Assembly: GCF_014651635.1 (NCBI RefSeq)
Contig: NZ_BMXG01000006.1
Coordinates: forward strand, 1 to 64,000
DNA length: 64,000 nt
Direction: 5' to 3'
DNA from: Cerasicoccus arenae
GTDB taxonomy: Bacteria > Verrucomicrobiota > Verrucomicrobiia > Opitutales > Cerasicoccaceae
Shown: positions 30,602 to 32,973 of the stretch, in pieces
How the letters are laid out: the number at the start of each line of letters is the position of its first letter
Numbering within the stretch: position 1 is the stretch's first letter
Notes under the pieces: model-generated
Databases searched by the model: none
What the model was told of the DNA's origin: nothing
The model's input: the letters and a program-made list of their open reading frames with translations, nothing else
Translations under genes and position numbers: made by a program

Positions 30602-31609
<1,008 letters not shown>

Positions 31610-31617
31610 GCGTGGGG

Positions 31618-31638
31618 TTTCTCACGGAGACACTGAGA
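31618..31638. repeat. left arm of 21-bp inverted repeat framing GxxExxY gene
   Basis: TTTCTCACGGAGACACTGAGA matches the reverse complement of 32042-32062 at 20 of 21 positions. The GxxExxY start codon follows seven bases after it. Confidence 0.9.
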
Positions 31639-31645
31639 CACAAAG

Positions 31646-32026
31646 ATGGACGAAAACGAAATTGGTTCGGTTATTATCGATACGTCAGTGAAGCTCCACA
31701 TGGCTTTAGGGCCTGGTTTATTAGAAAATGTTTATGAAATGACGCTCGCTCACCAGTTGGAAAAGCAAGGACTTAGCGTGGCGCGGCAAGTTGCTATCCC
31801 GGTTGAATATGATGGAATTCAGTTCGAGACAGGCTTTCGAGCGGATCTAATCGTCAATCAACTGGTTATCATTGAACTCAAGTCTCTCGAAAAAATAATC
31901 CCCGTTCATAAGAAACAATTACTTACCTATTTGAAGCTTACAGGCCTGAAGCTTGGTTATCTGCTAAATTTTGGCGAAGAGTATATGAAAAATGGCATCA
32001 CTAGAATCATTCATGGAAGCCTCTAA
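31646..32026 (+). CDS. GxxExxY protein (PD-(D/E)xK-like)
   Basis: The protein has 126 residues. The name-giving motif GLLENVY is at residues 24-30. The core has D67 in FRADLIV and E77/K79 in IELKS, the arrangement of PD-(D/E)xK nuclease folds. Family members are frequent in environmental bacterial genomes and lack a known role. It sits between moxR and the DUF58 gene, framed by 21-bp inverted repeats rich in ACGGAGACAC units. The base composition is AT-richer than its neighbours and the Gly/Glu motifs are intact, which suggests a recent acquisition. Confidence 0.88.
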   Translation: MDENEIGSVIIDTSVKLHMALGPGLLENVYEMTLAHQLEKQGLSVARQVAIPVEYDGIQFETGFRADLIVNQLVIIELKSLEKIIPVHKKQLLTYLKLTGLKLGYLLNFGEEYMKNGITRIIHGSL

Positions 32027-32041
32027 GTATGGCCTCCGTGC

Positions 32042-32062
32042 TCTCCGTGTCTCCGTGAGAAA
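32042..32062. repeat. right arm of 21-bp inverted repeat framing GxxExxY gene
   Basis: TCTCCGTGTCTCCGTGAGAAA is the inverted counterpart of 31618-31638 (20 of 21). Just upstream there is one more CTCCGTG unit, giving three closely spaced copies. The DUF58 gene starts 15 bases after the arm. Confidence 0.9.
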
Positions 32063-32076
32063 ATAAAATCCCCACC

Positions 32077-32973
32077 ATGTCCACCACCGTTAAAGACCTC
32101 CTCGACCCCTCGCATCTGACGCAGATTGCCAATATGCAGTTGTTGGCGCGGACGGCTGTGGAAGGCTTTCTGAGCGGGATGCACCGGAGCGTGTTTCACG
32201 GCTTTGGGACGGAGTTTCTGCAATACCGCAACTACACCCCAGGCGAGGACTTAAAATACATCGACTGGAAGGTCGTTGCTCGCACGGACAAGCTTTATAC
32301 GAAGGTCTATCAGGAAGAGACGAACATGAACTGCACCGTGTTGCTGGATTGTTCAGGCTCGATGGACTATCAGGGCTCGCGCGCCTCGTGTACGAAGTTC
32401 CGCTACGCTGCAATGGTCGCTGCGTGCATTGCTTATTTGGCCGGTCGGCAGGGGGACAATGTCGGCCTGTTCGCCTACAGCGATGAGCTTCTGGAAGCAG
32501 TGGAGCCGGGGCATCGCGCTGGCCAACTGAGCCGCGTCATGCACGCCTTGGCCCGCCTAAAGCCGCATGGTGCCGCCGCGCATCAGCGCACCCTTGACAA
32601 CCTGACGCACCCCTTCAAGCACCGCGGGATTGTCATCCTGATCTCCGATATGCTGGAGGCCGAAGACCAACTGCCGCGCCTGCTCCGTAATTTCCGATTC
32701 CGCCATTGCGACGTGATCGCGCTGCAAGTTCTCGACCCAGACGAGCTGGACCTGCCGCAGCCGCAAGTGACACGTTTCCGCGATCTCGAAGCAGGCAAGG
32801 AAGTCGTCGCTTGGCCGTCCTCCGTCCGCACACAATACACCGAGCGGATGAACGAATTTCTCGCCAACCTGCGCACGGGCTTTTCAAAAAGCCAAGTCGA
32901 TTACCTGCGCCTCCAGTCCACCGATAGCCTGGGCTTGGCCCTCGCGCAATACCTCCACCACAGAACCCTGTGA
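32077..32973 (+). CDS. DUF58 domain protein (VWA-like)
   Basis: The protein has 298 residues. The family signature is FLQYRNYTPGEDLKYIDWKV near 49-68, followed by a VWA-like MIDAS motif LLDCSGSMDYQG near 90 and LISDMLEAEDQLPRLLR near 185. In moxR operons the DUF58 protein is the usual partner of the MoxR ATPase. It follows the GxxExxY gene. The next gene is separated by 76 bases of direct-repeat-rich DNA. Confidence 0.93.
   Translation: MSTTVKDLLDPSHLTQIANMQLLARTAVEGFLSGMHRSVFHGFGTEFLQYRNYTPGEDLKYIDWKVVARTDKLYTKVYQEETNMNCTVLLDCSGSMDYQGSRASCTKFRYAAMVAACIAYLAGRQGDNVGLFAYSDELLEAVEPGHRAGQLSRVMHALARLKPHGAAAHQRTLDNLTHPFKHRGIVILISDMLEAEDQLPRLLRNFRFRHCDVIALQVLDPDELDLPQPQVTRFRDLEAGKEVVAWPSSVRTQYTERMNEFLANLRTGFSKSQVDYLRLQSTDSLGLALAQYLHHRTL

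Follow-up and report, generated by a model that had tools for sequence, protein, structure and literature searches.

A single gene enclosed by inverted repeats, lodged between two genes that are usually direct neighbours, raises the question of what kind of unit it forms and how it came to lie there. The gene is found in the window analysed here, a stretch of 64,000 nucleotides from Cerasicoccus arenae (contig NZ_BMXG01000006.1). The initial annotation, made from the letters alone, described it as a PD-(D/E)xK-type GxxExxY gene framed by 21-nt inverted arms and forming, without a transposase, a non-autonomous mobile or repeat-associated element inserted between moxR and a DUF58 gene. Direct reading of the sequence confirmed the anatomy: the 445-bp unit at 31618–32062 consists of a left arm, a single GxxExxY ORF and a right arm, and the matched arms, 21 nt each with 403 nt between them, are complementary at 20/21 positions (95%). 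The left arm runs from a T-rich outer end through the units CACGGAGA, CACTGAGA and CACAAAG to the ATG of the GxxExxY gene, and on both sides the runs of units reach beyond the matched 21 nt. The fit between the host genes is tight, with 8 nt from the moxR stop codon to the left arm and 14 nt from the end of the right arm to the DUF58 ATG. A profile search found no transposase family in the unit, its ORF matching GxxExxY and PDDEXK_3 only, and an Rfam search of positions 31400–32300 gave no match. A reading of the right arm as an intrinsic terminator was rejected, as the sense strand has A's after the arm, not T's.

Table 1 Features of the armed GxxExxY unit and its host genes (window coordinates).
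Feature	Coordinates	Strand	Evidence
MoxR-type AAA ATPase gene, upstream host gene	30602..31609	+	PF07726, E 1.2e-62
Left arm; matched part 31618-31638	31618..31645	+	Inverted-pair search and reading
GxxExxY gene, 126 aa, PD-(D/E)xK-type	31646..32026	+	Profile, conservation, structure model
Right arm, inverted units; matched part 32042-32062	32033..32062	-	Inverted-pair search and reading
DUF58 gene, downstream host gene	32077..32973	+	PF01882, E 6.3e-47

The proposed identity of the gene was borne out by profile searches. The window ORF matches TIGR04256 (GxxExxY) with E 3e-40 and 137.2 bits against a curated cut-off of 35, and PF13366 (PDDEXK_3) with E 4.5e-40 and 137.1 bits against a cut-off of 22. 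Residues Gly24, Glu27, Tyr30, Asp67, Lys79 and Asn108 are present in all 120 GxxExxY proteins of the survey set described below, Glu77 in 115 and Gln91 in 119. The window protein carries the putative PD-(D/E)xK residues Glu27, Asp67, Glu77, Lys79 and Gln91, which are conserved across the class and to which we presumptively assign active-site roles. Comparison with the ortholog of Cerasicoccus frondis gave a pN of 0.094 and a pS of 0.75, rates that indicate that the protein is under purifying selection. An AlphaFold2 model of the protein (pLDDT 96.6) had as its best matches in the PDB SSO0001 (4ic1; E 2.7e-3), which we take to be a Cas4 protein, and LHK-Exo, with lambda exonuclease further down; these fold matches are weak, none having an E value of 0.001 or lower, and the match of the protein to a Cas4 profile is also weak (E 0.0018). 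The model thus weakly suggests an enzyme like Cas4 and lambda exonuclease, a predicted likeness in which the alkaline/lambda exonucleases are included among the nearest folds. Compared with these nucleases the window protein is a minimal form of 126 aa, and its gene has those for MoxR and DUF58 as neighbours, where a CRISPR or recombinase gene might be expected for such enzymes. No established role of these proteins is known to us, although GxxExxY genes are multi-copy in many of the genomes examined.

We then asked how far the arms exceed chance. The window pair scores 37 in an inverted-pair search. Within 464 kb of its genome (G000; the window plus 20 stretches of 20 kb, from an assembly that is 97.6% complete) 12 inverted pairs score at least 30 and three at least 37, and an order-1 Markov sequence of 464 kb holds six of at least 30 with a best score of 37; at this scale the 21-nt match taken alone lies close to what chance can produce. 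By contrast, 40 shuffles of the surrounding 530 nt gave a best score of 26, well short of the window pair. Moreover, the arm recurs in the genome and in relatives, a check that had been proposed with the original description: TTTCTCACGGAGACAC, allowing up to 2 mismatches, is found at 16 sites in G000, two of which are the arms of the window unit, whereas the reversed control sequence has 4. The inverted-pair finder is blind to short-loop palindromes, and missed an armed insert without a gene (hereafter a mini) at site 3 of G000 (see below), so the density of elements is underestimated.

The gene and its arms were surveyed across phyla. TIGR04256 matches are present in 29 of 54 relatives (profile search; 1–11 matches per genome) and in 69 of 145 genomes of a phylum sample. 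Nine GxxExxY loci lie in named records, among them C. frondis, Phycisphaeraceae, Desulfobulbaceae, Nitrospiria and Geomonas, and eight record genomes, picked for having a match, hold 1–12 TIGR04256 matches each. The survey set comprised 120 non-redundant full-length GxxExxY genes from Verrucomicrobiota and other phyla, mostly high-scoring fetched matches and not every match, which biases it toward intact copies; 14 ORFs (7 duplicates and 7 partial) were left out, and the window locus and its C. frondis ortholog, fetched more than once, were each entered a single time. If an arm may extend into the ends of the gene, 96 of the 120 genes have inverted arms that score above all 600 shuffles (above 30; shuffle maximum 28). 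An earlier test that did not admit such overlap gave 81/120 above 30 (shuffle maximum 30), and a first inverted-repeat test on a smaller set 48/72 (shuffle maximum 24). Armed genes make up 57/69 of the order-level relatives, 19/24 of the other phyla and 20/27 of the phylum sample. Among neighbouring control ORFs only 6/221 have arms above the same threshold, and five of these six show arm-like units by reading; the unit pattern is also visible in several of the 24 GxxExxY loci that scored as unarmed, which were still counted as negative. The arms have a median length of 33.5 nt and are 88.8% identical over aligned positions, and the best self-offset is 8–10 nt in 70 of 81 arms. The common design is one of tandem units, mostly of 8–10 nt and mirrored on both sides, the sequence of which varies by locus. 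The window unit is one member of a widespread class that spans multiple phyla. At two other loci (L030 and L168) back-to-back arms flank the gene on both sides, as if two elements abutted.

MoxR and DUF58 genes lie close together in two relatives, in line with what was first stated: the gap between the aligned ends is 12 nt in one (G007) and 23 nt in the other (G005), and the moxR-DUF58 junctions of G005, G007 and G008 hold no insert. Occupancy of this junction differs among congeners and other relatives. It contains GxxExxY in C. arenae and in C. frondis (G001), and the C. frondis ortholog also has arms and is not a fixed operon member devoid of them. In G003, a different ORF of 108 aa is enclosed by an inverted pair of 41 nt that differs in sequence (score 77), and G004 has a short pair with no ORF (score 27; shuffle maximum 19). 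A small ORF, hydrophobic by reading, is located between CCACGGAGACACGGAGA-type arms in G006, the strongest pair there being another repeat (score 55). The small hydrophobic ORF of G002 has a right arm of the G000 type and a left arm that does not match it; the best pair scores 20 with 21/40 shuffles as good, so this insert is not a clean cassette. By eye, the armed insert is followed in G002 (L110) by a short copy of the DUF58 5' end and then a toxin-antitoxin-like pair, and in G006 (L114) by a short copy of the DUF58 5' end and then an antitoxin-like fragment.

Different occupants were also found at other junctions. At site 1, G001 and G003 have GxxExxY, G002 has a mini with other arms (score 36) and G000 has neither. 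The occupants of site 2 are again GxxExxY in the first two of these genomes and a differently armed mini in G002 (score 38), G000 being not contiguous there. At site 3, G000 has its armed mini, and G001–G003 have no arm-type insert, the G001 site containing a 15-nt pair of other sequence (score 30). Site 4, which precedes a pheT-like start (named from reading), is occupied by GxxExxY in G002 and G003, by a GxxExxY gene with an internal deletion and both arms kept in G000, and by a four-helix-bundle gene with weak arms in G001 (score 21; 1/40 shuffles as good), where the flanks are ~95% identical to those of G003. Eleven genome-junction cases were able to hold a different insert (seven at moxR, two at site 1 and one each at sites 2 and 4), and a different insert is present in 4/11 counted strictly and in 7/11 if weak inserts are admitted. 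There are three inward-facing arm pairs with the most frequent unit pattern in 464 kb of G000 and three in 400 kb of G003, and our rough guess at a base rate of armed inserts is a few per cent of junctions, with other arm types adding to it. Junction reuse looks higher than this base rate and may be caused by targeting, by arm-to-arm exchange or by selection. One junction before an SDR-like gene (named by reading) carries GxxExxY in five relatives (L020, L025, L028, L032 and L057), with arms of different unit types. Elsewhere in G000 (C4; L136:17455-17996), 37-nt arms of the CGCGGAT type, 97% identical, surround an ORF of 73 aa with a hydrophobic stretch at its end, and may form a cassette that carries different cargo.

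Arms are matched within an element. A left flank finds its best partner in the right flank of its own locus at 60/96 loci and has it within the best six at 91/96. Of 24 same-site pairs (protein identity at least 0.5), 18 have arms that agree better within an element than the corresponding arms do between the two loci. The exceptions are one tie (the window with G001, 0.83) and, of the six pairs that exceed 0.85, five. These pairs share loci and are not independent, one being two neighbouring copies in L064, and the limits of the same-site arms were set by aligning the two arms with each other, a procedure biased toward this outcome; that the arms of one element may change in concert is thus an indication, not a clean test. 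Arm similarity also correlates with protein identity. At non-orthologous sites the Mantel r is 0.37 with arms taken outside the conserved domain (81 loci; maximum of 500 permutations 0.127). It is 0.40 overall (96 loci; maximum of 1000 permutations 0.115) and 0.39 when a locus of the Verrucomicrobiota sets is paired with one from another phylum (maximum of 1000 permutations 0.20). Pairs from the same genome with less than 45% identity (72 pairs) have a median arm score of 14; for different-genome pairs the median is 12 below 45% (3051 pairs) and 23 at 60% or above (159 pairs). In particular, a protein from a Phycisphaeraceae MAG that is 75% identical to that of the window is adjoined by TCTCACGGAGGCAC units, the same type as the window's, the best-scoring pair at that locus being a longer composite and not these units alone. 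At the level of sequence comparison, arm type is shown to track the nuclease lineage, between phyla too, more than the genome, a pattern that agrees with inheritance of gene and arms as one unit, with recognition of the arms by the enzyme, or with the two together.

Gene-less copies that share arms with a gene-bearing copy of the same genome are present. The arm family of site 4 occurs at 17 other places in G003 and 8 in G002, both of which have an intact GxxExxY in those arms, and at one other place each in G000, which has the deleted copy, and in G001, which has no GxxExxY with those arms. The site-2 family occurs at 11 other places in G001 and 4 in G003 (both intact), one in G002 and none in G000. 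This link of minis to an intact enzyme covers two arm families in four genomes, with queries from G003, 40 of the 52–84 candidates per genome scored in G001–G003 and all in G000, and two matches outside the arm segments of the query excluded. Of 20 mini loci read, 16 have an inverted pair, most measuring 80–190 nt overall, and two short hairpins have strong predicted folds (z -8.4 and -10.7). An origin of minis by internal deletion can draw on the one partly deleted copy of G000, which has both arms; no GxxExxY remnant was recognised in the 20 minis.

Some minis are nested. A second pair inside scores above all 60 shuffles in 4/16 (L288, L292, L302 and L304), L288 and L302 representing a single orthologous site; the inner pair of L297 is below this threshold (4/60 shuffles as good). 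The core of L288/L302 is flipped between G003 and G002 with co-linear flanks, 108/129 positions being identical when inverted and 80/134 when co-linear. Among the arm-type inserts of G000 and G003, an arm from the same genome is the single best match in only 2/12 (L185 and L092), and for all six G000 inserts a foreign arm matches better than those of the own genome. The arms of the L185 mini are identical (23/23) to those of a four-helix-bundle gene of G003 (L152). By reading, another arm-like repeat of the AAACAGGAAGATCGGGAAGAGCGGGAAGC type stands beside or within minis at L288, L295, L304 and L008.

Signs of movement were sought in several ways. Target duplications, which had been suggested as something to look for at the ends, are not in excess: abutting repeats at the 96 armed loci average 1.55 nt against permuted means of 1.06–1.81, and repeats of at least 5 nt occur at 3/96. 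Among fetched intact copies of the same genome only 2/102 pairs are >70% identical, same-site pairs excluded, so the copies do not look like recent jumps. Searches for carriage of GxxExxY gave zero matches in phages, six plasmid records, each with <60% identity, and one viral contig (single search pattern). The median distance to the upstream stop codon is 9 nt (n=63, a figure given with no control set). A preference in orientation was dismissed, as 63/78 elements are co-directional with the upstream gene against 86/120 controls. At shared sites GxxExxY has the same orientation in 51 locus pairs and is inverted in two (42–43% identity); inversion was rejected here, the two pairs being probably independent insertions. 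Neither an excision nor a new insertion was observed in the genomes compared. Mobility of the window element is likely but unproved. Of the initial reading as a non-autonomous mobile element, the arm-bounded unit, its recurrent arms and the differing occupancy of the junction stand and mobility stays inferred, and the term non-autonomous more likely fits the gene-less minis than the gene-bearing window copy.

We favour, with a probability of about 0.48, the reading that the window unit is a minimal, transposase-less selfish inverted-repeat element with its own cognate enzyme acting on the arms. The Cas4/lambda-exonuclease-like enzyme would recognise its own arms, folded as a hairpin or cruciform in single-stranded DNA exposed, for example, at replication forks, and would process them. 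The unit could then be inserted into a different spacer or trade places with an arm already resident, copying from one arm to the other would keep the pair matched, and minis with the same arms could be served in trans. Our confidence is lowered by the foreign arm matches of the inserts and by the weaker count of nested minis. Against the nuclease as a requirement stand the armed TIGR02436 genes described below and the armed ORF of G003; armed genes devoid of a nuclease show that the design can do without one in the unit.

These same genes are what would be expected if the units were passive inverted-repeat cassettes, in which host replication or recombination (template switching, conversion between arms) spreads the arms and keeps them matched, the ORFs being framed cargo and GxxExxY perhaps having a maintenance role. 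The joint change of arms in the 18/24 same-site pairs, non-independent and alignment-biased as these are, agrees with this explanation, as do the flipped mini core, which points to recombination between arms, and the lack of a transposase and of target duplication. The frequency of arms at GxxExxY genes relative to their neighbours is, however, tight for random cargo, and the type of arm goes with the lineage of the nuclease, also across phyla, more than with the genome. We consider passive cassettes possible, though doubtful.

A third explanation places the element at the level of RNA, as for the intervening sequence (IVS) of 23S rRNA: the transcript arms would pair, RNase III would cut the stem, and the insert would be removed from the operon mRNA or insulated from it. 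The predicted fold of the window transcript does pair the arms (-138.1 kcal/mol, z -3.1), TIGR02436 genes also lie within arms, and size and anatomy resemble the Coxiella IVS (PMC4990558). However, the mismatches between arms are 82 of the G-U type and 109 of the A-C type on the sense strand (p 0.06), or 67 and 96 in another count (p 0.028), and pairing of sense RNA was rejected as the force that matches the arms, since the mismatch types do not favour G-U. In addition, co-directionality differs little from that of the controls and the window unit is not in rRNA. An RNA-level element is therefore improbable.

Mobilisation as a REPIN by a Y1/RAYT transposase is highly unlikely, even though the minis resemble REPINs as inverted doublets with a short loop and hairpin folds. 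PF01797 (Y1) has zero matches in G000 and in five relatives with GxxExxY (G005, G007, G008, G020 and G038), the TIGR04256 matches in these six genomes numbering 3, 2, 7, 7, 3 and 2, respectively, with two of those of G000 full-length, and REPIN/RAYT was rejected for the window unit on this lack of a Y1_Tnp match in G000. A single window arm folds weakly alone (left, -2.2 kcal/mol, z -0.67; right, -1.7 kcal/mol, z -3.74), and a RAYT-like ORF of G003 (by reading; L182:12808-13591) is framed by GGAGGGCAACGCTTCGTCGTTGC repeats and goes with separate pairs of other sequence. The G003 sample contains other REP-like pairs, a repeat system apart from the armed elements. Finally, an ordinary operon gene with chance repeats, which the near-chance score of the bare 21-nt match would allow, is negligible in view of the recurrence of the arms, the control ORFs and the lineage-tracking arms.

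The armed design, recurring in several phyla, may represent an undescribed kind of minimal mobile element. A broader proposal is that GxxExxY defines a new class of mobile elements in which the nuclease replaces the transposase, reads cognate arms of tandem 8–10-nt units and moves minis and other single-gene cassettes (with four-helix-bundle or unknown ORFs) into and out of shared gene junctions across several phyla; the rRNA IVS would then be a branch that landed in rRNA. We regard this proposal as speculative and, taken whole, unlikely to hold. Should GxxExxY genes generally form the core of inverted-repeat units, this would point to a function for them and would explain many purine-rich intergenic repeats. 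The old question of how rRNA IVSs moved would also become testable, since a candidate enzyme could be matched with minis. GxxExxY is mentioned in PMC8934634, and the open-access literature yielded no description of an armed GxxExxY element.

Compared with known systems, of which 23S rRNA IVSs and REPINs come nearest, the window unit lacks tested defining features of insertion sequences (IS), REPINs and IVSs. IS and miniature inverted-repeat (MITE) pairs combine copies with and without a gene that have their terminal inverted repeats in common, and a target-site duplication is usual, although not universal, for classical insertion sequences. The armed class likewise has gene-bearing and gene-less copies with common arms; unlike IS and MITEs, it has no transposase family in the unit, no target duplication and few close intact copies. 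REPINs with RAYT are described (PMC3116915) as inverted doublets predicted to form hairpins and located in spacers. The minis are also inverted doublets with a short loop and hairpin folding, whereas the arms here also frame whole genes.

The IVS offers a link through the four-helix-bundle genes, TIGR02436 and S23p being presumably one family. Among relatives, TIGR02436 genes lie in the same kind of arms, and at one junction (site 4, G001) a four-helix-bundle gene takes the place of GxxExxY. In all, 18/29 TIGR02436 genes of relatives score above 24, a threshold borrowed from the GxxExxY shuffle maximum and used with no shuffles of their own, some of the arms being simple tandem runs; 30 of the 60 listed matches had loci, and one was too short. 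These armed genes link the armed class to the 23S rRNA IVS. The Coxiella IVS (PMC4990558) has 428 nt, a 28-bp terminal stem and one small ORF of the S23p four-helix kind, and is termed selfish, with its origin and mobility unsettled. The window unit shares its size and its anatomy of arms around one ORF. Unlike the IVS, it lies in the spacer between protein genes and not within a 23S rRNA gene, its ORF is a PD-(D/E)xK-like GxxExxY and not an S23p/four-helix-bundle protein, and the arms of its class consist of tandem units that track the lineage of the nuclease.
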